Assembly (NCBI GenBank): GCA_005791855.1
Contig: SXUH01000335.1
Location: 1 to 11,497 of the forward strand
Source: Bdellovibrionales bacterium
GTDB taxonomy: Bacteria; Bdellovibrionota; Bacteriovoracia; Bacteriovoracales; Bacteriovoracaceae
Length of the DNA stretch: 11,497 nucleotides
Direction of reading: 5' to 3'
Below the pieces are notes generated by a model, which worked only from the letters and a program-made list of their open reading frames with translations, made no database searches and was not told the DNA's origin. Positions 2,270-11,375 of the stretch are shown one piece after another; the first letter of the stretch is position 1; every line of letters begins with the position of its first letter. The position numbers and the translations under genes are program-made.

Positions 2270-4312
2270 TTAATAGCTAAGAATATTTCGCGCTGCGGTC
2301 AGAATTTTTGTCATATCTGGAAGAGTAGCTCTTTCCAGAATTCTGTTGAAGCCAACCGGAGTGAAGGTCGATCCCACACGTCTCACGGGAGCGTCCAGGT
2401 GTTCGAAGGCGTGCTCGTTGATCACGCCGACGAGCTCTCCGCCGAAGCCGCCGAAGACCTTGTCTTCGTGGACGACGAGGGCCCGGTGAGTCTTCTTCAC
2501 GGTGGCGACGATCGCGTCGACGTCGAGCGGGTTCAGGGAGCGCAGATCGAGGACCTCGACCTCAGCACCTTCCTTGGCCAGCGCTTCCGCGGCCTCGAGG
2601 GAGAAGTGGACGGTGTTGCCGTAGGTGATGATCGAGAGGTCCCTCCCTTCTCTCCGGATGCGGGCCTTCCCGAACGGCACTTCGAAGTCCTCCGGGATCG
2701 GAGTCATGGCGTACTTCGCGTTGTAGAGGGCCTTGGGCTCGAGGTAGACGGTGCAGCCGCGGGACCGCATCGAGGTCCGCAGTAAGCCGGCGGCGTCGTC
2801 GGCGAAGGCCGGGACGACCACGCGGATCCCCGGGAGCGTGCAGAGAGTCCCTTCGATGTTCTGCGAGTGGTAGAGGCCGCCGCCGATGTACCCGCCGGAG
2901 GCGATCCGCACGGTGATGTTCGGCGAGAAGGCGCCGTTGCTCCGCCAGTAGTCGTGGGAGGTTTCCACCATCTGCTCCATGGCGGGCCAGAAGTAGTCGG
3001 CGAACTCCGCGCCCTCGACGACGAGGCGGATCTTCTCCTGGTCGAAGCGGGACATGCCGTTGGCGGTGCCGAGGATGTAGTCTTCGGCGATCGGGCCGTT
3101 GAACACCCGGTGCTTCCCGAACTCCTGCTGCATCCCCTTGGTGACGTTGAAGATCCCGCCCTTCTCCTTGTTGGCGACGTCCTGGCCCCAGATGTAGGTG
3201 TGCGGGTTGTGCCGGAACTCCGCCTTGAGGGTTCCGTTGATGGCGTCGATGAACTTCTTCGGCTCGGAGGTCTCCGAGTGGGTACCGTCGGTGTACTTGG
3301 CCGGGACGTGCGGCTCCGGGACGACGAAGTCCCAGATGGACTCCGGGGTCGGGTTCGGGGCCTTCACGGCCTTGGCGTGGGCGGCGAGGAGCTCGGCCTT
3401 GGCGTCGGCTTCGATCTTCTCGATGTCTTTCTCCGTGAAGATCTTCGCCTTCAGGAGGTCTTCCTTGAACTTCGGCAGCGGGTCCTGCGCCTTGGCGTCG
3501 GCCCGTTCCTTCTCGTCCCGGTACCACTCGTGGTTATCCGAGTTGGAGTGGTTCCCGATGCGCACGCAGAGGGCGTGGACGATGACCGGCTCGGAGTTCT
3601 TCAGCGCGTGCTCTCTCGCGGTGAGCATGGCGTTCATGGAGTCGAAGACGTCCTTCCCGTCGCACTTGATGATCTGGAGGTTGGCGAAGCCCGTGAAGTT
3701 GTCGCAGACGTGCTCGTTGGCGGTCTGGTCCCGCTTCGGAACGGAGATCCCGTAGCCGTTGTCCTGGAACACGAAGATCACCGGGAGCTTCTCGTTGGAA
3801 GCGCCGTTGATGGCCTCGTAGCAGTACCCTTCGGAGACGGAGGACTCACCCTGGGAGGAGATGGCCACGCCCTTGTGCTTGTAGACCTTCATGCCGCGGC
3901 CAACGCCCACGGCGTGGAGGGTGTGGTTCCCGGTGCAGGAGGAGACGTTGTGGATGTTCCACTCGGGCTTGGCGAAGTGGTTGGACATGTGCCGGCCGCC
4001 GCTCGCGAGGTCGGTCGCCTTGGAGATCCCGTTGAGGAGGAGTTCTTCCGTGGTGAGGCCCGCGGAGAGGGCCGTGAGCATGTCCCGGTAGTACGGGAAG
4101 AGGTGGTCGGTTTTCTTGTCGAAGACCTGGCCGATGGCGAGCTGGATGGCGTCGTGGCCCGCGTACGGAGCGTGGTACGACCAACCCAGGGCCTGCTTGA
4201 GGTAGTTCGGGGCCCGCTCGTCGATCATCCGTCCCAGGATCATCAGGTGGAGCCACTTCTTTAGAGTGCTCTTCTCGGTTTTTTTAATATCATGGTGTTT
4301 CACGACCTTCAT
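2270..4312 (-). CDS. Fused alpha/beta E1 subunit of a branched-chain-type 2-oxoacid dehydrogenase
   Basis: This 680-residue protein joins both E1 subunits of a thiamine-diphosphate 2-oxoacid dehydrogenase. E1 decarboxylates the substrate and passes the acyl group to lipoyl-E2. The alpha half (about residues 10-290) has the GGRHMSNHF region (105-113) and the ThDP/Mg motif starting at G155-E156-S157 and ending D184-N185-GYGIS. The first motif is GES rather than the textbook GDG. The beta half (about 340-680) has GQDVANKEKGGIF, FNGPIAED with the ThDP-contacting glutamate, EFADYFWPAMEQ, GGYIGGGLYHSQNIE and a transketolase C-terminal domain (VEVLDLRSLNPLDVDAI, VHEDKVFGGFGGEL). Fused E1s of this size are known, often annotated 2-oxoisovalerate dehydrogenase. 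A pyruvate or other branched 2-oxoacid substrate cannot be excluded. The ATG at 4312 is preferred over the upstream in-frame start at 4387 because GGAG lies 5 nt before it. The first 15 or so and last 35 or so codons are AT-rich, unlike the interior. No E2/E3 genes are in view. Confidence 0.9.
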   Translation of the reverse strand: MKVVKHHDIKKTEKSTLKKWLHLMILGRMIDERAPNYLKQALGWSYHAPYAGHDAIQLAIGQVFDKKTDHLFPYYRDMLTALSAGLTTEELLLNGISKATDLASGGRHMSNHFAKPEWNIHNVSSCTGNHTLHAVGVGRGMKVYKHKGVAISSQGESSVSEGYCYEAINGASNEKLPVIFVFQDNGYGISVPKRDQTANEHVCDNFTGFANLQIIKCDGKDVFDSMNAMLTAREHALKNSEPVIVHALCVRIGNHSNSDNHEWYRDEKERADAKAQDPLPKFKEDLLKAKIFTEKDIEKIEADAKAELLAAHAKAVKAPNPTPESIWDFVVPEPHVPAKYTDGTHSETSEPKKFIDAINGTLKAEFRHNPHTYIWGQDVANKEKGGIFNVTKGMQQEFGKHRVFNGPIAEDYILGTANGMSRFDQEKIRLVVEGAEFADYFWPAMEQMVETSHDYWRSNGAFSPNITVRIASGGYIGGGLYHSQNIEGTLCTLPGIRVVVPAFADDAAGLLRTSMRSRGCTVYLEPKALYNAKYAMTPIPEDFEVPFGKARIRREGRDLSIITYGNTVHFSLEAAEALAKEGAEVEVLDLRSLNPLDVDAIVATVKKTHRALVVHEDKVFGGFGGELVGVINEHAFEHLDAPVRRVGSTFTPVGFNRILERATLPDMTKILTAARNILSY

Positions 4313-4321
4313 AAGATCTCC
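4313..4321 (-). promoter_or_regulatory. Ribosome binding site fixing the E1 start at 4312
   Basis: On the minus strand GGAG (4318-4321) followed by ATCTT leads directly into ATG (4310-4312). This favours the shorter 680-residue product. The extra 25 codons up to 4387 read as basic, low-conservation residues and overlap the candidate promoter. Confidence 0.7.
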
Positions 4322-4360
4322 AGTACGACGTTTAGGCTTAGTGGTTGAAATGAAAAGATG

Positions 4361-4387
4361 ATTATCATAACCCGGTTTCACCGACAA
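4361..4387 (-). promoter_or_regulatory. Possible sigma70 promoter for the fused E1 gene
   Basis: Minus strand: GATAAT (4361-4366, 5 of 6 to the -10 consensus) with TTGTCG (4382-4387) as a -35, separated by 15 bp, slightly short of optimal. Transcription would begin near 4353, leaving a leader of about 40 nt with the GGAG site. The call is weak because of the spacing, but the position is right. Confidence 0.35.
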
Positions 4388-4493
4388 TAAAAAGGTCTTT
4401 GTTAACGCACAGGCGCTGTTCCCGGCTTACCGATGTTCAATGATCAATTACTCTGGTTAAATGGTCCGCATGCAAAATAATCTCAGGTAAATA

Positions 4494-4522
4494 TTGTGAA
4501 TTTTCGGGCCTGGCCTTAAACT
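4494..4522 (+). promoter_or_regulatory. Possible sigma70 promoter for the aminotransferase-astA pair
   Basis: TTGTGA (4494-4499) and TAAACT (4517-4522) are 17 bp apart, each 4 of 6 to consensus. Start of transcription would fall near 4529, leaving a leader of about 33 nt. An alternative -10, TATATT at 4535-4540, has no recognisable -35. The whole 4313-4561 divergent region is AT-rich, and I see no other gene, tRNA or strong hairpin in it. Confidence 0.3.
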
Positions 4523-4551
4523 TTTGAAATCACATATATTACTCTCAGTTT

Positions 4552-4555
4552 GGAG
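4552..4555 (+). promoter_or_regulatory. Ribosome binding site fixing the aminotransferase start at 4562
   Basis: GGAG at 4552-4555 lies 6 nt before ATG 4562. The alternative TTG at 4550 overlaps this Shine-Dalgarno sequence and is therefore rejected as the start. Confidence 0.75.
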
Positions 4556-4561
4556 ATCTCT

Positions 4562-5950
4562 ATGGCAAAGACCGTTGCCGAAGGCTTTTTTAACGACGCT
4601 CGCTTGACCCAAGCGAAGAAACTCATCCAAGAAGCTCTCGCTGATCATCAGAAGCAGATCACGGGAATCAGGCCCGCGAACCCGGCCCTCGCCGACTCCT
4701 ACACCGAGATCCTGAAGAAGGTCGCCGAGTACCGCGGCGGAGCTCTTTTCTACAACTACCTCGGGACCGGCATCGGCCACGGGCCCTTCGTCGAGCTCGC
4801 CGACGGATCGGTGAAGTACGACTTCATCACCGGCATCGGCGTCCACTACATGGGCCACTCGCACCCGGGCGTGATCGAGGCCCAGATCAACGGCGCCATC
4901 TCCAACACCGTGATGAACGGCCACCTCCAGCAGAACGTCGACACGGGCCGCCTCCTCGAGCTCTTCTCGAAGGAAGCGTGCAAGAACGGAGCGGAGGTGA
5001 AGAACGTCTTCCTCTCCACCTCCGGCGCCATGGCCAACGAGAACGCCTTCAAGATCATCTTCCAGAAGCGCGCCCCCGCCTCCCGCTTCTTCGCCTTCGA
5101 GAAGTGCTTCGCGGGCCGGACCCTCGGCATGGCCTGGGTCACGGACAAGGCCGCCTACCGCCAGGGCCTCCCGAAGACCATCGACGTGGACTACATCCCC
5201 TTCTACTGCTCCTCGGACCACAAGGGCTCGATCGAGCTCGCCGTGAAGACCATGAAGAAGTTCATCACCCGCTACCCGGGCCAGCACGCCGGGTTCATCA
5301 TGGAGCTCATCCAGGGGGAGAACGGCTCGTGGGTCGGGCACCAGGAGTACTTCGAAGCGCTGATCACCGTCTGCAAGGAACACAACATCTCCACCCTGGT
5401 GGACGAGGTCCAGACCTTCGCCCGGACCCGGGACCTCTTCGCGTTCCAGTACTTCAAGCTCGACAAGCTCGTCGACGTGGTTTCCGTCGGGAAGAACTCC
5501 CAGGTGTGCGCCACCCTCTTCCGGGACGACCACAAGCCCAAGCCGGGCCTCATGTCCCAGACCTTCACCGGTTCGTCGTCGCAGATCGCGGCGGCCCACT
5601 ACGTGATCAGCGAGATGGTGAACGGCGGGTACCTCGGAGAGAACGGCAAGATCGAGAAGCTCCACGCGCGCTTCAAGGGGAACCTCGAGAAGATCTCGAA
5701 GAAGCACCCGGACAAGCTCACGGGCCCGTACGGCGTGGGCGCGATGGTCGGGATGTCGATCTTCGGGGGCGACGAGCCGAAGTCCAAGGCCTTCACCATG
5801 AAGCTCTTCGAGAACGGCGTCCTCTCCTTCATCGCCAGTGGCCACCCCACCACGCGGGTGCGCTTCCTCATGCCCGTGATGGTCACCGAGGAGCGGCACA
5901 TCGACGAGGTCTGCGCCATCATCGAAAAAACTCTCACCGAGATCACCTAG
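4562..5950 (+). CDS. Class III PLP aminotransferase, lysine 6-aminotransferase-like
   Basis: The 462-residue protein is a fold-type I, class III (omega) aminotransferase. Visible elements are GTGIGHGPFVELADGSVKYDF early on, VFLSTSGAMANENAFK (phosphate/PLP region), ELIQGENGSWVG, LVDEVQT with the PLP-pyridine aspartate D281, and the Schiff-base lysine K311 in VGKNSQVC. The G-K-x-x-Q-V-C around the lysine and the G-A-x-A-x-E-N-A-x-K block resemble L-lysine 6-transaminase (LAT) more than acetylornithine or succinylornithine transaminases, which usually carry a glycine-rich stretch after the lysine. LAT converts lysine plus 2-oxoglutarate to 2-aminoadipate semialdehyde and glutamate. Position against astA would instead suggest succinylornithine transaminase (AstC). 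I favour a LAT-like assignment but leave the substrate open. It uses ATG at 4562 and ends with TAG immediately before the GTG of the next gene. The first 25 or so codons are less GC-rich than the rest. Confidence 0.85.
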   Translation: MAKTVAEGFFNDARLTQAKKLIQEALADHQKQITGIRPANPALADSYTEILKKVAEYRGGALFYNYLGTGIGHGPFVELADGSVKYDFITGIGVHYMGHSHPGVIEAQINGAISNTVMNGHLQQNVDTGRLLELFSKEACKNGAEVKNVFLSTSGAMANENAFKIIFQKRAPASRFFAFEKCFAGRTLGMAWVTDKAAYRQGLPKTIDVDYIPFYCSSDHKGSIELAVKTMKKFITRYPGQHAGFIMELIQGENGSWVGHQEYFEALITVCKEHNISTLVDEVQTFARTRDLFAFQYFKLDKLVDVVSVGKNSQVCATLFRDDHKPKPGLMSQTFTGSSSQIAAAHYVISEMVNGGYLGENGKIEKLHARFKGNLEKISKKHPDKLTGPYGVGAMVGMSIFGGDEPKSKAFTMKLFENGVLSFIASGHPTTRVRFLMPVMVTEERHIDEVCAIIEKTLTEIT

Positions 5951-7006
5951 GTGTTCATCATCAGGCCCATCGACCAGAAGGACCTCGACGGGCTGATGCA
6001 GCTCCTGGAGAAGTCTGGCCACGGCCTCACCTCCCTCCCGAAGGATCCGGAGGTCCTGAAGAAGCGGATCCGGATCTCCGAGCGGAGCTTCCTCCACCGC
6101 GGCGACGGCCCCGGGGGAGAGGACTACCTCTTCGTGATGGAGGAGCTCTTCACCGGGAAGATCGTCGGCGTCTGCGCCATCATCTCCAAGATCGGCGGCT
6201 TCGAGCCCTACTACTTCTACCGGCTGGAGAAGACCCACCACGAGTCCAAGTCCATCCACGTGAAGAACGACGTCACCTCCCTGCACTTCCACTTCATCCA
6301 CAACGGCCCCGCGGAGATCTGCTCGCTCTACCTGCACCCGGACTTCCGGAACTCGCAGAACGGCCGGTTCCTCTCCCTCTCGCGCTTCCTCTTCATCGCC
6401 GAGAACCGGAAGCACTTCGAGGACCAGGTGATCGCCGAGCTCCGGGGGATGGTGAACGACTCGGGCCACTCCCCGTTCTGGGACGCGGTCGGGAAGTACT
6501 TCTTCAAGATCGACTTCCCGACGGCCGACTACCTCTACGTGAAGAACAAGAAGTTCATCGAGGAGCTCATGCCGAAGTACCCGATCATCGCCAACCTCCT
6601 GCCGGAGGACGCGCAGTTCGTGATCGGGAAGGTCCACCTCAACACGGAGCCGGCCAAGCGGATCCTCGAGCAGGAGGGCTTCCGCTTCTCGGGCCTCGTC
6701 GGGATCTTCGAACCGGGCCCGGTGCTCATCGCCGAGGTGGACAACATCCGCGCCATCCGGGAGAGCATCGTCGGGGAGATCGAGGAGATCTCCGAGAAGC
6801 CGTTCAAGACCGAGATGTATATCATATCGACGACCTCGGGTACCTTCCGCTCCGCCCTCGGCGGGGTCACCCGGCTCAAGTCCGGGAACTACAAGATCTC
6901 CGGCGTCACCGCCGCCGCCCTGAAGCTGCGCCTGGGGGATAAGATCCGCTTCGTCTCCTTCAAGCCCAAGGCCCCGGCCAAGAAGAAAGCCTCCGCGAAG
7001 AAGTAG
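5951..7006 (+). CDS. astA: Arginine N-succinyltransferase (AstA family)
   Basis: AstA uses succinyl-CoA to succinylate arginine (or ornithine), the first step of the arginine succinyltransferase pathway, in the cytoplasm. The 351-residue protein matches the family along its length. It has MFIIRPIDQKDLDGLMQL and GHGLTSLPKDP at the N-terminus, YLFVMEELFTGKIVGVCAI, GFEPYYFYRLE, the EICSLYLHPDFR and GRFLSLSRFLFIAENR acyltransferase core, VIAELRG...GHSPFWDAVGKYFF, KFIEELMPKYPII and PAKRILEQEGFRF. The start is GTG 5951, directly after the upstream TAG with no gap and only a weak Shine-Dalgarno, which implies translational coupling. It is slightly longer than typical because of a basic tail, about 15 residues rich in lysine, alanine and proline (PAKKKASAKK). 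No astB, astD or astE is in the window, so the rest of the pathway must be elsewhere or the enzyme has another substrate. Confidence 0.9.
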   Translation: MFIIRPIDQKDLDGLMQLLEKSGHGLTSLPKDPEVLKKRIRISERSFLHRGDGPGGEDYLFVMEELFTGKIVGVCAIISKIGGFEPYYFYRLEKTHHESKSIHVKNDVTSLHFHFIHNGPAEICSLYLHPDFRNSQNGRFLSLSRFLFIAENRKHFEDQVIAELRGMVNDSGHSPFWDAVGKYFFKIDFPTADYLYVKNKKFIEELMPKYPIIANLLPEDAQFVIGKVHLNTEPAKRILEQEGFRFSGLVGIFEPGPVLIAEVDNIRAIRESIVGEIEEISEKPFKTEMYIISTTSGTFRSALGGVTRLKSGNYKISGVTAAALKLRLGDKIRFVSFKPKAPAKKKASAKK

Positions 7007-7030
7007 CACTAGGCAAATTTCCCCCAGCCC

Positions 7031-7058
7031 TTGAAACCTCTGAATATTATTGGAGAAT
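7031..7058 (+). promoter_or_regulatory. Probable sigma70 promoter for the YceI-cytochrome operon
   Basis: TTGAAA (7031-7036, 5 of 6) and GAGAAT (7053-7058, 4 of 6) are 16 bp apart in the 85-bp AT-rich gap after astA. Transcription would begin near 7065, about 27 nt before the yceI ATG. There is no hairpin terminator between astA and this point, so read-through from astA is also possible. Confidence 0.45.
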
Positions 7059-7091
7059 AAAACATCTTCCATTCTTTCAAAAGGCTCATCG

Positions 7092-7577
7092 ATGAAGCTC
7101 TTCCTCGCCCTCGCCGTCCTCGTCTCCACCACCGCGGCCTTCGCGGACCCGAAGCTCACCCTGCTGGTGAACCTCAGTCCGGCCGGGTCGTTCCAGGCCG
7201 TGAGTAACAAGGTGAAGGGGAACCTCATCAAGACCGGAGACGCCTTCACCGCGGACAAGATCTCCGTCACCGTCGAGTCGTTCAAGACGGGCATCGAGCT
7301 GCGGGACGAGCACCTCTGGAAGCACATGCAGGCGTCGAAGCATCCGAAGGCGACCCTCACCGCGGTGAAGGGCCAGGGCGGGAAGGCCACCGGGACCCTC
7401 GAGGTGAACGGGATCAAGAAGCCGGTCACCATGAGCTACAAGGTCGCGGGCCAGGAAGTCCTCGCGAAGTTCTCCGTCAAGGCCTCGGACTTCGCGCTCC
7501 CGAAGGCGGAGTACCTCGGGGTCGGCGTGGACGACGTGGTGAACGTCGAAGCCACCTTCCCGTTTAAGGCAAAATGA
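7092..7577 (+). CDS. YceI-family periplasmic lipid-binding-like protein
   Basis: YceI proteins are small periplasmic lipocalin-like beta-barrels that bind isoprenoid or other amphiphilic ligands; many lie next to cytochrome genes. This 161-residue product has a Sec signal peptide (MKLFLALAVLVSTTAAFA|DPKL). It then shows the family signature: a segment rich in strands (FQAVSNKVKGNLIKTG), TVESFKTGIELRDEHLWKHM with the conserved T-G-x-x-x-R-D-x-H-L, KHPKATLTA, and GTLEVNGIKKPVTMSYKV. The start is ATG 7092 with AAAAGG at 7079-7084 (7-nt spacing). An upstream in-frame start at 7050 is rejected because it would bury the signal peptide. The TGA stop overlaps the next ATG in an ATGA junction, so it is coupled to the cytochrome lipoprotein. 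It is GC-rich from its first codon, unlike other transcription-leading genes here. Confidence 0.9.
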   Translation: MKLFLALAVLVSTTAAFADPKLTLLVNLSPAGSFQAVSNKVKGNLIKTGDAFTADKISVTVESFKTGIELRDEHLWKHMQASKHPKATLTAVKGQGGKATGTLEVNGIKKPVTMSYKVAGQEVLAKFSVKASDFALPKAEYLGVGVDDVVNVEATFPFKAK

Positions 7578-7939
7578 AAATCCTCTTCCTCGTCCTCGCG
7601 CTGGCCAGCTGCCAGACGTACAACTCGAACACCGACGACGAGGCCAAGTACGGCCCCACGGACCTCGTCGGGGGCGCCGAGTTCGTCGTCGCCTTTCCGA
7701 TCATCCAGAGCCGCTGCATCAACTGCCACACCGGGTACCACAATGCCTGGTCGAACTACAAGGACAGCCGGGACTGGGTGACGAACAACCTCATCGTCGG
7801 CGGCGATCCGGACAACTCCGACTTCATCGTGCGGATCTTCAACCACGGGAGCGCGACCTCGAACATGCCCATGGGCGGCTCGCCCCTCCCGGCCTCCGAG
7901 TACAACGCCCTCGTGGACTGGGTGACCAATGAACCCTAG
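7574..7939 (+). CDS. Monohaem c-type cytochrome lipoprotein
   Basis: The 121-residue product has a short lipoprotein signal peptide with a lipobox LASC, acylated cysteine C13, and Q14 at the +2 position, which predicts outer-membrane sorting. The mature part has one c-haem site, C48-I-N-C51-H52. A later pattern, GDPDNSDFIVRIFNHG then NMPMGGSPLPASEYNALVDWV, resembles the planctomycete-type small cytochrome (PSCyt1) arrangement: GDP..S.. .R, MP.g..PL...E...L..W[IV]. M98 or M100 may be the sixth haem ligand. It is predicted to be a membrane-anchored periplasmic electron carrier. The start ATG overlaps the yceI stop (ATGA), and AAGG at 7566-7569 is the ribosome binding site. The 3' end overlaps the next gene by 11 bp. 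No redox partner enzyme is encoded nearby except the neighbouring haem-barrel protein. Confidence 0.85.
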   Translation: MKILFLVLALASCQTYNSNTDDEAKYGPTDLVGGAEFVVAFPIIQSRCINCHTGYHNAWSNYKDSRDWVTNNLIVGGDPDNSDFIVRIFNHGSATSNMPMGGSPLPASEYNALVDWVTNEP

Positions 7940-9089
7940 GTTCCCGCGCTCGCTCCTCCTCTGGGCCCTCCTCCTCGCGACGAGCCTCTCCTCTTACGCG
8001 TACACGAACTTCATCGGCCACAGCTACACCTCGTGCCTGAACTGCCACTACAACCCGACGGGCGGCGGCCCCCTCACCGACTACGGCCGCGCGGTCTCGG
8101 CGACGGCCATCTCCTCGAAGATGTTCTACCCCGACGCCTGGTCGGAGGAGAAGGTCGCCTACACCTCCGGCTTCCTCTTCCGCAAGCCGAAGCAGGAGTG
8201 GCTCCGGACCCAGGTGAACTACCGGGGCTTCCAGGTCGTCCGCAACCCCGGCTCCGAGAAGAACGAACAGAAAGAGTGGATCAACATGCAGCTCGACGGC
8301 CGGCTCATCCTGAAGTTCGGCCAGAACGATAAGTTCGTCGCCGTCGGGAACTACGGCTACGCTCCCCTCCCCGAAGGCGTGGAAGACCAGCCGGAGTGGC
8401 GGAGCCGGGAGTACTACCTCGGCTACCGCTTCTCACCGAAGTTCGGGATGTACGCGGGCCTCATGGACAAGGCCTACGGGGTCAAGGTCATCGAACACAT
8501 CGCCTTCAGCCGGACCGCTCCCCAGGTCGCCCAGAACGACCAGGTCCACGGAGTCCTGGGCCACTACCTCGGAGAGAAGTGGGAGATCACCGGGCAGGGC
8601 TTCGCCGGGAACCTGGGCCAGGACGCGGACCTCCAGATGAAGGGCGGGAGCATCCTCGCCGAGCGGACCACCTTCGACCTGCACCGGATCGGGTTCTCGG
8701 CGCTCCAGAGTAAGAACGAATTCCTCACCCTCCAGTCCTACGCCCTTCATGGCCGCTTCAACCTCAAGGAAGGCTCGGCCATCCTCACGGAAGTGGGCCA
8801 GACCAACCGGAAGACCTTCAACGGCCTCGACGACCGGACCATGCGCTACGGTCTCCTCCAGACCTACCTGCGGCCCTTCCGGGGAGTCTACTTCCTAAGC
8901 AACATCGAATACTTCAACCGGGACATCCGGGAGAGCGACTACACCGTGCGCTGGGGGCCAGGCCTGCAGTTCTTCCCGGTCCAGAGAGTCGAGCTCCGGC
9001 TCGACGCCTACAACACCAGAAGCTTCTCCACCAACGCCTCGACCCGGGACTCGTGGATGTACCTCTTCCAGGCGCACCTATGGTTATGA
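7929..9089 (+). CDS. Outer-membrane beta-barrel protein with N-terminal c-type haem site
   Basis: The 386-residue protein starts with a signal peptide (RFPR then a leucine-rich core, cleavage after about A24). A haem-attachment motif C36-L-N-C39-H40 follows, then NPTGGGPLTDYGRA. H31 just upstream could serve as a distal haem ligand. From about residue 75 to the end the sequence is a succession of amphipathic beta-strands with many aromatic residues and alternating charge (EYYLGYRFSPKFGMYAGL, GVYFLSNIEYFNRDI, VELRLDAYNTR). It closes with SWMYLFQAHLWL, which looks like an outer-membrane beta-signal. The barrel would be roughly 14-16 strands, by length only. I read it as a barrel with its own periplasmic haem, but I do not recognise a named family. 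The ATG at 7929 overlaps the cytochrome lipoprotein by 11 bp. Its end overlaps the next gene. It may be a small porin-cytochrome-like conduit or a haem-linked porin; this is inference. Confidence 0.75.
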   Translation: MNPRFPRSLLLWALLLATSLSSYAYTNFIGHSYTSCLNCHYNPTGGGPLTDYGRAVSATAISSKMFYPDAWSEEKVAYTSGFLFRKPKQEWLRTQVNYRGFQVVRNPGSEKNEQKEWINMQLDGRLILKFGQNDKFVAVGNYGYAPLPEGVEDQPEWRSREYYLGYRFSPKFGMYAGLMDKAYGVKVIEHIAFSRTAPQVAQNDQVHGVLGHYLGEKWEITGQGFAGNLGQDADLQMKGGSILAERTTFDLHRIGFSALQSKNEFLTLQSYALHGRFNLKEGSAILTEVGQTNRKTFNGLDDRTMRYGLLQTYLRPFRGVYFLSNIEYFNRDIRESDYTVRWGPGLQFFPVQRVELRLDAYNTRSFSTNASTRDSWMYLFQAHLWL

Positions 9090-10108
9090 AGACGCTCCTG
9101 GCGCTCCTCCTCCTCGTCCCGTCCCTCACCGCGCTCGCCAACGAGATCGAGCGGGCCTACCGGGCGAAGGACTTCAAGCGGGTCGCCGAGATCTACCAGG
9201 CGAACCCCAAGCGGGCCTACACCACCCGGGAGCTCATGATGCTCTCCCTCGGGCTCCGGAAGAACCAGCTGTACCGCCAGGACATCATGCTCAACGTGCG
9301 GATCATCAAGAAGGAGTACGGGAAGCTCCACAAGGCCATCCTCTCGGACATGAAGCAGGGGAACACCATCGACGCCGACGCCTACCCGAAGTCCCTGAAG
9401 ATCATCTACTGGAACCTCATGAACGACTACGGCCGGATCATGCAGGGGTACAAGGACGTCCAGGAGGTCAACGCCAAGGACCGGCAGCACTACGCGAGCT
9501 TCAGCAAGCTCCTGAGCGAACTCGAGTTCCGGGAGAAGGAAGTCGACAAGCTCAACGACGAGATCACCGCCCACATCCAGTACCTCGAGAACAAGGTCTA
9601 CAAGTTCACCTTCGGCTTCAACCTCCAGTACCTCAGCTGGCAGCAGGTCTCGACCCTCGAGGGCCCGACCACCAGCACCTCCCTCATCGTGACGAACCGG
9701 GGGTACTGCGCGGGGGTGGAGGCCGGGGTCGAGAACTACCGCTACCACTACTACGTCGATGCGTGCCTCATGCTGGGGTCCGGGGGGGTCTCCTCCACCG
9801 GCTCGGCCATCAACTACCAGCAGTCCAACATCCCCGCCTACGGCGTCAAGGGGGGCCCGGGGATCTCCATGATCGTCTCCTCCTCGAGGTCCCGGATCGG
9901 GATCAAGCTTCCCGTGATCTACAACATCCAGGAACTCTCCCAGCCTCGGAACGCCGGGTACTCGGTGAAGGAAGAGTCCCCCGTCTCCTTCGTCGCCACC
10001 CTCTACTCCCGCTGGCAGTTCGAGAAGTTCTTTCTCCAGACCGAATTCGGCCAGTATGTCCAGAAGGACCAGACCCTCTGGAGCCTCGGGATCGGGAAAA
10101 GTTTCTGA
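9080..10108 (+). CDS. Exported protein with helical/coiled-coil N-domain and small C-terminal outer-membrane barrel
   Basis: No family recognised. The 342-residue product has a signal peptide (MKTLLALLLLVPSLTALA|NE). Next comes a helical region of about 115 residues, beginning AYRAKDFKRVAEIYQANPKR, that looks TPR-like. A charged coiled-coil follows at about residues 140-173 (LLSELEFREKEVDKLNDEI and on), then about 170 residues of alternating strands rich in Tyr, Gly and Ser. The end is LWSLGIGKSF, with the terminal phenylalanine typical of outer-membrane proteins. The barrel portion is the size of an eight-stranded one. Two starts compete. ATG 9080 has AGG at 9070-9072 (7-nt spacing). ATG 9086 forms an ATGA overlap with the upstream stop and removes two residues. 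Either keeps the signal peptide. It is the fourth and last gene of the envelope operon. A possible role is as an outer-membrane anchor or partner of the haem barrel. Confidence 0.75.
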   Translation: MVMKTLLALLLLVPSLTALANEIERAYRAKDFKRVAEIYQANPKRAYTTRELMMLSLGLRKNQLYRQDIMLNVRIIKKEYGKLHKAILSDMKQGNTIDADAYPKSLKIIYWNLMNDYGRIMQGYKDVQEVNAKDRQHYASFSKLLSELEFREKEVDKLNDEITAHIQYLENKVYKFTFGFNLQYLSWQQVSTLEGPTTSTSLIVTNRGYCAGVEAGVENYRYHYYVDACLMLGSGGVSSTGSAINYQQSNIPAYGVKGGPGISMIVSSSRSRIGIKLPVIYNIQELSQPRNAGYSVKEESPVSFVATLYSRWQFEKFFLQTEFGQYVQKDQTLWSLGIGKSF

Positions 10109-10141
10109 TCCGACTAGGATTTCTGTAATAATTCTTTTTTT
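10109..10141 (+). terminator. Weak possible terminator after the envelope operon
   Basis: ATCC-GACTA-GGAT forms a four-base-pair hairpin at 10109-10121. A run of eight T (10134-10141) follows, but about 12 nt further on. Stem strength and spacing are poor for an intrinsic terminator, so this is a low-confidence call. No better hairpin is visible before the next gene. Confidence 0.25.
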
Positions 10142-10174
10142 TCCTGACAGTGCGTCCCGAAGCACCGAAATGCC

Positions 10175-10188
10175 CCTATACTTATAGG
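10175..10188 (+). promoter_or_regulatory. -10-like element within a perfect inverted repeat upstream of the receiver gene
   Basis: CCTATA-CT-TATAGG is a perfect 6-bp inverted repeat with a 2-bp centre. It contains TATACT (10177-10182, 5 of 6 to a -10), 20 bp upstream of the start codon. No convincing -35 lies 16-18 bp upstream. The best TTGACA-like word, CTGACA at 10144-10149, is 27 bp away. It could be a promoter with an overlapping operator, or a chance palindrome. Confidence 0.35.
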
Positions 10189-10201
10189 AAACAGGGATCT
10201 T

Positions 10202-10585
10202 ATGGAAAAAAATCTATTAATCGTAGATGATGAGATCGAACTGCGTGAAGGACTCGCGGAACTTCTCAGCGACGCCAAGGCCCGGATCTACACCGCCGCC
10301 AATGGCCTCGCCGCACTTCGGATCATGGAAGACGTGCACATCGACTGCGTGGTGACCGACGTCAAGATGCCGGTGATGGACGGGATCAAGCTCATCCAGG
10401 CCGCGCGGTCCAAGGGGCTCGAGTCCGAGTTCATCTTCTTCACGGGCCACGGATCGGACGAGCTCCGGGCCCTGGTGAAGAGCTACGGGGCCCACGACCT
10501 CTTCACCAAGCCCGAGTTCAGTTCCCTCGAGAAGGCGGTCCACGCCCTCCTCGCGAAGGTTCCGGTGCTCGCTACTGCCCTCTAG
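10202..10585 (+). CDS. Stand-alone response-regulator receiver domain (CheY-like)
   Basis: At 127 residues this is a lone receiver domain with no output domain. All key residues are present: acidic pair D9-D10, phospho-acceptor D53 in VVTDVKMPVMDG, T81 in FFTGHG and K103 in FTKPEF. The switch position near 101 is F. Such proteins relay phosphate or act by protein contact; the partner kinase is not in the window. AGGG at 10193-10196 gives 5-nt spacing to the ATG. The first 15 or so codons are AT-rich, then the usual GC-rich codons take over, as in other transcription-leading genes here. The 3' end overlaps the convergent DUF1338 gene by 14 bp with no terminator between them. It lies 93 bp after the envelope operon, so the two might be co-expressed, but the AT-rich gap suggests its own promoter. 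Confidence 0.92.
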   Translation: MEKNLLIVDDEIELREGLAELLSDAKARIYTAANGLAALRIMEDVHIDCVVTDVKMPVMDGIKLIQAARSKGLESEFIFFTGHGSDELRALVKSYGAHDLFTKPEFSSLEKAVHALLAKVPVLATAL

Positions 10586-11375
10586 AGGTGCTCTCGAAGA
10601 TCTTGTCGGCGGAGTTTGCCACGAAGCCCTGGTAGAGCTTCCCGTTTTGCAGCGGGTACCGCTTGGCGAATTCGTAGTAGCAGGCCGGGACGGTGAGTTC
10701 CCCGTCTTCGAACTGGACCGTGATGTTATTGGCCAGGGTCGACGACTGCTCGAGGTAGACGTCCTTCGACCCCTTGACCTCGCCGCCGCTCGAGTTGAGC
10801 TTGAAGCCGTTTTCCTTTAAGTACTCGTTGAGAACTTTGATGTCGGAGAACCCTTTGAGCTCGTTGATGAAGACGGTGAAGTGGTTTGGTCGGTACCCGA
10901 AGGCGGCCACCCAGGCGGCGTAGTCGCTCTCCTTCAAGAGGGCCTGGTAGGTGTCCTTGGTCACCTTCCACGGTCTCCCGATGGAGACGAAGTCGAACTG
11001 CCGTTCCATCCCCGGCGGGATCTGGTCGATGAGGCCCTTCACGGTTTTCTGCAACGCAGGCGAGAAGTCCTCCAGCTTCAGTTCGGAGATAAATATTTTA
11101 GGTAGGGAGTCGTCCGCGTGCTCGTAGTGTTTTGCGTAAAGCTTCTTCTCAGGAAAGTGATAGTCGCCGCAGTACTTGTAGCCGGAGGCGGTGAAGGGGG
11201 CCGCCATGACGTCGATCCCGACCCTCGGGTGGTTGAAGGTCCGGAGGGCGATGTGGTCGTTCTGGATCCTGTCGCCGGTACCGGTGAGGAGGTCGTAGAT
11301 CTTCTTCGCCATGGGATTGATCGCGATGTAGTCGATCCACATCTTATCCAACAAAGCTGGTAGAGTTTTAGCCAT
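10572..11375 (-). CDS. DUF1338 family protein, 2-oxoadipate dioxygenase/decarboxylase-like
   Basis: The 267-residue protein matches the DUF1338 family, whose characterised member HglS turns 2-oxoadipate into 2-hydroxyglutarate with Fe(II) and O2 in lysine breakdown. Candidate 2-His-1-Glu metal ligands are H41 in NDHIALRTFN, H165 in RPNHFTVFIN and E235 in ACYYEFAKRYP. R45, four residues after H41, fits the conserved H-x-x-x-R pattern of the family. The protein is of the short type, without the extra length of the 450-residue bacterial enzymes. The start ATG (11373-11375) has AGGAGA upstream with about 5-nt spacing. The gene is read from the strong promoter at 11398-11427. The first 13 or so codons and a patch at about 11085-11160 are AT-rich relative to the rest. 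Family membership is fairly sure; the substrate is inferred from HglS, and short members may differ. Confidence 0.85.
   Translation of the reverse strand: MAKTLPALLDKMWIDYIAINPMAKKIYDLLTGTGDRIQNDHIALRTFNHPRVGIDVMAAPFTASGYKYCGDYHFPEKKLYAKHYEHADDSLPKIFISELKLEDFSPALQKTVKGLIDQIPPGMERQFDFVSIGRPWKVTKDTYQALLKESDYAAWVAAFGYRPNHFTVFINELKGFSDIKVLNEYLKENGFKLNSSGGEVKGSKDVYLEQSSTLANNITVQFEDGELTVPACYYEFAKRYPLQNGKLYQGFVANSADKIFESTSRGQ

Follow-up and report, generated by a model that had tools for sequence, protein, structure and literature searches.

A single-haem barrel encoded with a lipoprotein cytochrome and a YceI lipocalin in Bdellovibrionota: a candidate redox module of the outer membrane

What use would a bacterium have for a haem attached to a porin-like barrel of its outer membrane? 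The question is raised by contig SXUH01000335.1 of a Bdellovibrionales genome (GCA_005791855.1; contig 292 of a 60%-complete genome in 462 contigs), all 11,497 nucleotides of which were analysed and are referred to below as the window. A cluster of four overlapping plus-strand genes at 7092-10108 encodes, in this order, a YceI-family protein, a cytochrome lipoprotein, a barrel protein with a haem motif (the haem barrel) and a second barrel protein termed gene 4. Gene linkage, haem motifs, folds, a lipid anchor and conserved residues were established computationally, and on balance we favour the reading that they describe an outer-membrane redox module composed of a cytochrome-porin, a lipoprotein cytochrome, a YceI carrier and an accessory gene 4 product. 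An initial annotation made from the DNA letters had regarded the four genes as one apparatus without a named counterpart, and our literature searches likewise turned up no named system composed of these genes, nor any paper combining Bdellovibrio with YceI or a cytochrome-porin with Bdellovibrionota.

The predicted structure of the haem barrel has 16 strands, matching OprO and OprP. Its lone CxxCH is present in 73/73 orthologues and in 17/17 aligned members of a distant paralogous subfamily, and in the barrel family the haem site is followed by the sequence NPxGxGPLxDYGR. The signal peptide is likely to be cleaved right before a conserved aromatic residue, a site placed by eye rather than by a signal-peptide program. 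H190, which the model locates between strands 5 and 6, is invariant in 23/23 alignment rows spanning both subfamilies; it lies on the in-folded L3 loop and is proposed as the most likely distal haem ligand. M120 was also considered as a ligand and was set aside, as strand alternation places it on the lipid side. The window barrel matches no Pfam family, no family was shared by more than one of 24 orthologues searched against Pfam (best E 0.013), and a PDB sequence search with the barrel gave nothing better than E 0.7. Among the matches listed, the barrel of Peredibacter starrii is 67% identical to that of the window.

In the available parts of PMC8406198, Cyc2 is likened to OprO and OprP as a 16-stranded barrel, and the single-haem cytochrome-porins Cyc2 and Cyc572 appear as proteins of iron oxidisers in what is available of PMC8406198, PMC10654088, PMC13200544 and PMC11495043. 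On these partial descriptions, Cyc2 and the present barrel share a signal peptide, one N-terminal CxxCH and a 16-stranded OprO/OprP-like barrel. The first half of the Cyc2 motif, AxPxF, stands 12 residues before the haem cysteine in 39/73 orthologues (the window barrel lacks it, having T in place of P), whereas the full motif AxPxFAR[QK][TY] and the Cyc2 PxL motif, about 4 residues past CxxCH, were each found in 0/73 orthologues and 0/17 paralogues. The present barrel differs further in the NPxGxGPLxDYGR that follows its haem and in being encoded with YceI and a lipoprotein cytochrome. Membership of Cyc2 was rejected on the absence of the motifs, the two being set apart by motif descriptions and not by sequence comparison; judged by sequence and model, the barrel is built like a cytochrome-porin yet is not Cyc2. 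The name Bdellovibrio is missing from the main text, as far as available, of the Cyc2 literature searched for it (for example PMC12442345).

Two further comparisons place the barrel among known outer-membrane proteins. Identity to OprO and OprP, the Porin_O_P family (PF07396), is about 8%, the barrel adds a haem motif, and 0/24 orthologues match PF07396. With MtrAB, MtoAB and PioAB it would share a haem inside an outer-membrane barrel, if the haem lies where we place it, and a periplasmic cytochrome partner; those systems, according to the accessible text of PMC8406198, use a separate decahaem protein and a 26-stranded barrel, whereas here one haem is fused to 16 strands. A conduit of the Mtr/Mto/Pio type was rejected on the single haem motif and the strand number.

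The two genes that precede the barrel encode its putative partners. In the cytochrome, C13, C48, C51, H52 and M98 are invariant in 15/15 relatives, as is the pair M98-P99, so that the CxxCH and C-terminal Met ligand that define class I are both present. The lipid anchor, with a +2 residue other than Asp, and the invariant Met ligand bear out the earlier description of the protein as a lipid-anchored monohaem cytochrome. A profile of the cytochrome gave weak matches to c6 and c551, and at one paralogue locus the di-haem cytochrome has a PF13442 score of 34.8. Directly after the lipid anchor, most of the lipoprotein cytochromes, that of the window included, carry a stretch resembling Y-N-S-N-[ST]-x-D. 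The YceI protein scores 61.3 bits against PF04264 (Pfam cut-off 23.7), and a profile of 16 relatives matches solved YceI/polyisoprenoid-binding structures; YceI proteins are isoprenoid binders according to the part of PMC9113575 available. The best start of the window gene is ATG 7092, from which the signal peptide MKLFLALAVLVSTTAAFA can be read by eye, and the stop is at 7577; a TTG lies upstream at 7050, and the cluster start of 7031 given initially falls upstream of the preferred start.

The protein encoded by gene 4 lacks CxxCH, has only a weak, below-cut-off Pfam match and found nothing better than E 1.9 in a PDB sequence search. It resembles both the 8-stranded barrels of OprF and OmpA and the tetratricopeptide repeat (TPR) proteins, differing from either in joining the two folds in one protein behind a haem barrel. 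Both barrel proteins had been expected to reside in the outer membrane and to carry haem: both model as outer-membrane folds, and the haem motif is found in the barrel of the third gene (CLNCH) and not in gene 4.

The overlaps described for all three junctions agree with the coordinates: an ATGA of 4 bp joins YceI to the cytochrome, 11 bp are shared by cytochrome and barrel, and gene 4 begins at ATG 9086 (ATGA, 4 bp) or at the in-frame ATG 9080 (10 bp). Conservation of this arrangement was examined in 73 orthologue loci. Besides the window, these are L002-L013, which were located through the barrel, and L043-L102, which were selected on barrel position with mostly a single locus per genus; L063-L065 were picked for long reading frames, and L001 and L014-L042 (short, with many repeats) were excluded. 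Overlap lengths at these loci depend on start codons that were assigned mechanically. YceI lies no more than 5 kb from the barrel in 51/73 loci and a small cytochrome in 53/73, rising to 68/73 for a cytochrome of this kind of any size. All four genes are near one another in 40/73 loci (47/73 when larger cytochromes count), so the expectation that they stay together in related genomes held. The background frequency of YceI is about one match per Mb (19 genomes with listed sizes of about 52 Mb together gave 55), and the linkage of YceI to the barrel exceeds chance because only about 1% of random 11-kb stretches would be expected to hold one, against 51 of the 73 barrel loci.

Which of the genes belong together most consistently is seen from a second subfamily of barrels, with about 20-25% identity to the first. 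Cytochrome, YceI and haem barrel are adjacent on one strand in 20/20 paralogue loci read, the cytochrome having two haem motifs in 19/20, and in none of the 20 was gene 4 recognised over the 2.6 kb around the barrel. Two of these loci (L114 and L115) were known beforehand to adjoin YceI and the other 18 were chosen regardless of context; the alignment of the subfamily (A6) covers 17/20 members, L105 (contig end), L108 and L113 being omitted. YceI, cytochrome and haem barrel are thus an old core unit, and gene 4 is confined to one branch. In 67/73 loci of that branch it follows the barrel on the same strand at a distance of no more than 60 bp; of the six loci where it was not recognised, L097 ends 143 bp past the barrel, and L050 and L055 hold an unrecognised frame there. 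In genus g52 (G132) it reaches only about 200-260 residues, too short for the helical part. Because it was not recognised at the paralogue loci and is sometimes too short for the helical part, gene 4 is taken to be an add-on. The idea of a single four-gene apparatus is therefore corrected to a core of the first three genes with the fourth as an addition.

Gene order is less constant than gene company. Tandem YceI-cytochrome-barrel-gene 4 as in the window, barrel-gene 4-YceI-cytochrome, convergent and divergent arrangements were all seen, and the orientation of YceI relative to the barrel switched at least 6 times on the barrel tree of the 51 loci with YceI. Since proximity survives rearrangement, a shared task is better supported than it would be by a fixed operon. 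One group of 15 loci, from families f1, f22 and f3, consists of 13 full tandem cassettes, L008 (YceI turned round) and L010 (no cytochrome). It is united in the barrel, gene 4 and YceI trees (supports of 100, 98 and 81, respectively, in the Shimodaira-Hasegawa-like approximate likelihood ratio test) and is separate in all three from the other genera of the window's family; a further tandem locus, L083, lies outside it. The trees are quick searches with some long branches, and on them the simplest reading is that the cassette may have been transferred between families, an old paralogy followed by losses being the alternative.

Across Bdellovibrionota, the barrel or its distant paralogue was matched in 228/368 genomes of the phylum and in 81/129 of the class, all genome counts, including those by genus, accepting either subfamily. 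In three protein searches, every legible organism name among the best 120 of 1112, 200 and 615 matches came from Bdellovibrionota, most rows being nameless, and plasmid records held no homologue outside the phylum for either subfamily. The cultured genera Peredibacter and Bacteriovorax carry family members among the matches listed.

The redox module that we favour would work as follows. A c-type haem near the mature N terminus, with H40 as the proximal and H190 as the distal ligand, would sit in a stretch that plugs the 16-stranded pore. The lipid anchor would hold the small cytochrome at the inner face of the outer membrane, where it could trade electrons with the barrel haem, and YceI may ferry quinone or another isoprenoid across the periplasm, thereby coupling the pair to the inner-membrane quinone pool. 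A small outer partner, for which an oxidant or metal, a reductant and a peroxide are candidates, would get to the haem in the barrel mouth via the pore. Gene 4 would be accessory, its OmpA-type barrel and TPR domain perhaps holding or assembling the complex.

Several findings weigh against this proposal. Neither barrel subfamily was matched in 140/368 genomes of the phylum, and in the window's own genus 9/26 genomes are without a barrel match (four of them >90% complete) and a tenth has only the paralogue; given this patchiness within the genus, the barrel is regarded as accessory. No YceI lies within 5 kb in 22/73 loci and no small cytochrome in 20/73, and the cytochrome tree has no single tandem clade, requiring 3 changes. 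Residues 19-40, the proposed plug, have a predicted local distance difference test score (pLDDT) <50 in an AlphaFold model that omits haem, and the window cytochrome, at 26.2 against a cut-off of 27, falls just below the threshold of PF13442. No gene for an outer donor or acceptor was identified. One haem is too short to bridge the whole outer membrane, and the substrate must therefore enter the pore.

The main rival, which we consider doubtful, is an envelope antioxidant system in which YceI-quinone and the cytochrome quench peroxyl radicals of outer-membrane lipids and the haem barrel acts at the end in the manner of a peroxidase; such a system would be a c-type counterpart of BcnA/LcoA. According to the available text of PMC9113575, the gene for the YceI protein BcnA is linked to a cytochrome b561 gene in many bacteria, and Burkholderia mutants in either gene show more lipid peroxidation. 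The likeness of a YceI gene linked to a cytochrome gene is reinforced by the loci of both barrel subfamilies, in which YceI plus cytochrome is the common element. LcoA, however, is described there as a membrane cytochrome b561, whereas the cytochromes here are c-type, one a lipoprotein and one fused to a porin partner; cytochrome b561 had no match among the 10 window proteins scanned, neighbours at other loci having been scanned in part. A weaker point is that the neighbours scanned included no oxidative-stress gene, most recurrent neighbour clusters being without a family match.

It is unlikely that the haem serves as a gate or a sensor of oxygen, nitric oxide or carbon monoxide in a substrate-specific porin and takes no part in electron transfer. 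A haem in the part expected to plug the pore of a classical diffusion-porin fold would suit such a role, but the repeated pairing with a Met-liganded, redox-type c cytochrome, and the two- and three-haem cytochromes at some loci, would not. Slightly less likely again is a haem enzyme in the barrel that acts on an isoprenoid or lipid moved by YceI, with electrons from the cytochrome: the isoprenoid binding of YceI proteins and their presence beside both barrel subfamilies favour it, whereas the residues conserved on the lumen side of strands 1 and 2 are polar and no lipid-metabolism gene was found among the neighbours scanned, which are part of all neighbours. Least likely is a Cyc2-type iron oxidase, in which Fe(II) would enter the pore and reduce the haem with electrons passing on to a terminal oxidase, as the shared layout and the AxPxF of 39 orthologues might suggest, but the full motif and PxL are absent from all 73 and neither the proposed His/His ligation nor the predatory, organotrophic lifestyle of the host group points that way.

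Coordinates of the cluster and its features are collected in Table 1. No terminator-like site was found in 6900-10300, and an Rfam search of the window gave no match.

Table 1. Features of the YceI-cytochrome-barrel cluster, in window coordinates
Feature	Position	Strand	Basis or remark
Weak match to a sigma-70-like promoter	7031..7058	+	Upstream of YceI; 1 found vs 0.6 expected by chance
YceI-family periplasmic lipocalin, 161 residues, signal peptide	7092..7577	+	PF04264, 1.8e-16; YceI/polyisoprenoid-binding structures
Lipid-anchored class I-like monohaem cytochrome c, 121 residues	7574..7939	+	Lipobox, CxxCH, invariant residues of relatives
Lipobox Cys13 codon (LASC-Q)	7610..7612	+	+2 residue not Asp
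Cytochrome haem motif CINCH, residues 48-52	7715..7729	+	Sequence
Predicted monohaem cytochrome-porin, 386 residues: signal peptide, N-terminal haem plug, 16-stranded barrel	7929..9089	+	Sequence, model
Barrel haem motif CLNCH, residues 36-40	8034..8048	+	About 11 residues past likely mature N terminus
H190 codon, loop at L3 position, proposed distal haem ligand	8496..8498	+	Invariance; putative ligand role
Gene 4, 340 residues: predicted TPR-like helical domain and 8-stranded OmpA/OprF-type barrel, no haem	9086..10108	+	Model

Several other genes recur around the barrel. A second lipoprotein signal peptidase, LspA (PF01252), is encoded immediately upstream of the barrel at L060, L063-L067, L071, L073, L074, L076, L077 and L086, and has what by eye is a membrane/HAMP-like tail. 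At 9 of these loci it stands within 100 bp of the barrel and on its strand, and at L063-L065, which are three genomes of a single genus, its frame runs stop-free into the barrel signal peptide; it would be unusual for the module to have an LspA of its own or for the product to be a cleaved polyprotein. A similar tail, again by eye, is found on a small membrane protein that follows gene 4 at L002 (10154-10585), L004, L005 and L044, where the window has a response regulator. L079 and L080 have no separate small cytochrome nearby, and the gene immediately upstream of the barrel encodes a three-haem protein whose domains resemble the small cytochrome. A Tat-signal-like (twin-arginine translocation) protein of about 490-570 residues, accompanied by a lipoprotein of about 230 residues and one- to two-haem cytochromes, occurs at 27/73 loci (for example L003, L013, L047, L060 and L061), with a second version of the set at 13/73 (for example L007, L011 and L054). 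By eye, these sets resemble planctomycete-type DUF1501/PSD sets; a Pfam search of 10 such neighbours gave only cytochrome domains above cut-off, and DUF1501 was sought and not found in the window's own 60%-complete genome.

At L109, L111, L112, L116, L118 and L119 a gene for a YHS-domain-like protein stands ahead of the paralogue operon (PF04945 confirmed only at L111), and genes for a LysR-like regulator and a nitroreductase (the latter confirmed at L112) lie near several of these operons. In the window itself, 2270-7006 and 10572-11375 are likely a lysine-catabolism neighbourhood, with a fused E1 alpha/beta dehydrogenase (705 residues), a class III aminotransferase, an AstA-type succinyltransferase and a PF07063 2-oxoadipate dioxygenase/decarboxylase. 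This flank is taken as unrelated to the cluster because, among the 73 loci, it recurs at no more than 5 or 6, in close relatives.

The phylum Bdellovibrionota is known chiefly for members that prey on other bacteria, and the module looks like an undescribed route for electrons at their outer membrane. The barrel provides a second family of single-haem cytochrome-porins, with its own signature and recurrent partners, beside those known from iron oxidisers in the literature as far as available. If the redox module is real, it would constitute an outer-membrane redox link for which the literature searches found no description. More tentatively, a quinone-carrying YceI, a lipoprotein cytochrome and a bis-His single-haem cytochrome-porin may together form a new class of conduit across the phylum, which, if true, would allow small molecules to be oxidised or reduced at the surface without multihaem cytochromes. 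For YceI lipocalins, a family of debated function, the linkage also supplies concrete redox partners, which opens the question of their role directly to genetic tests.

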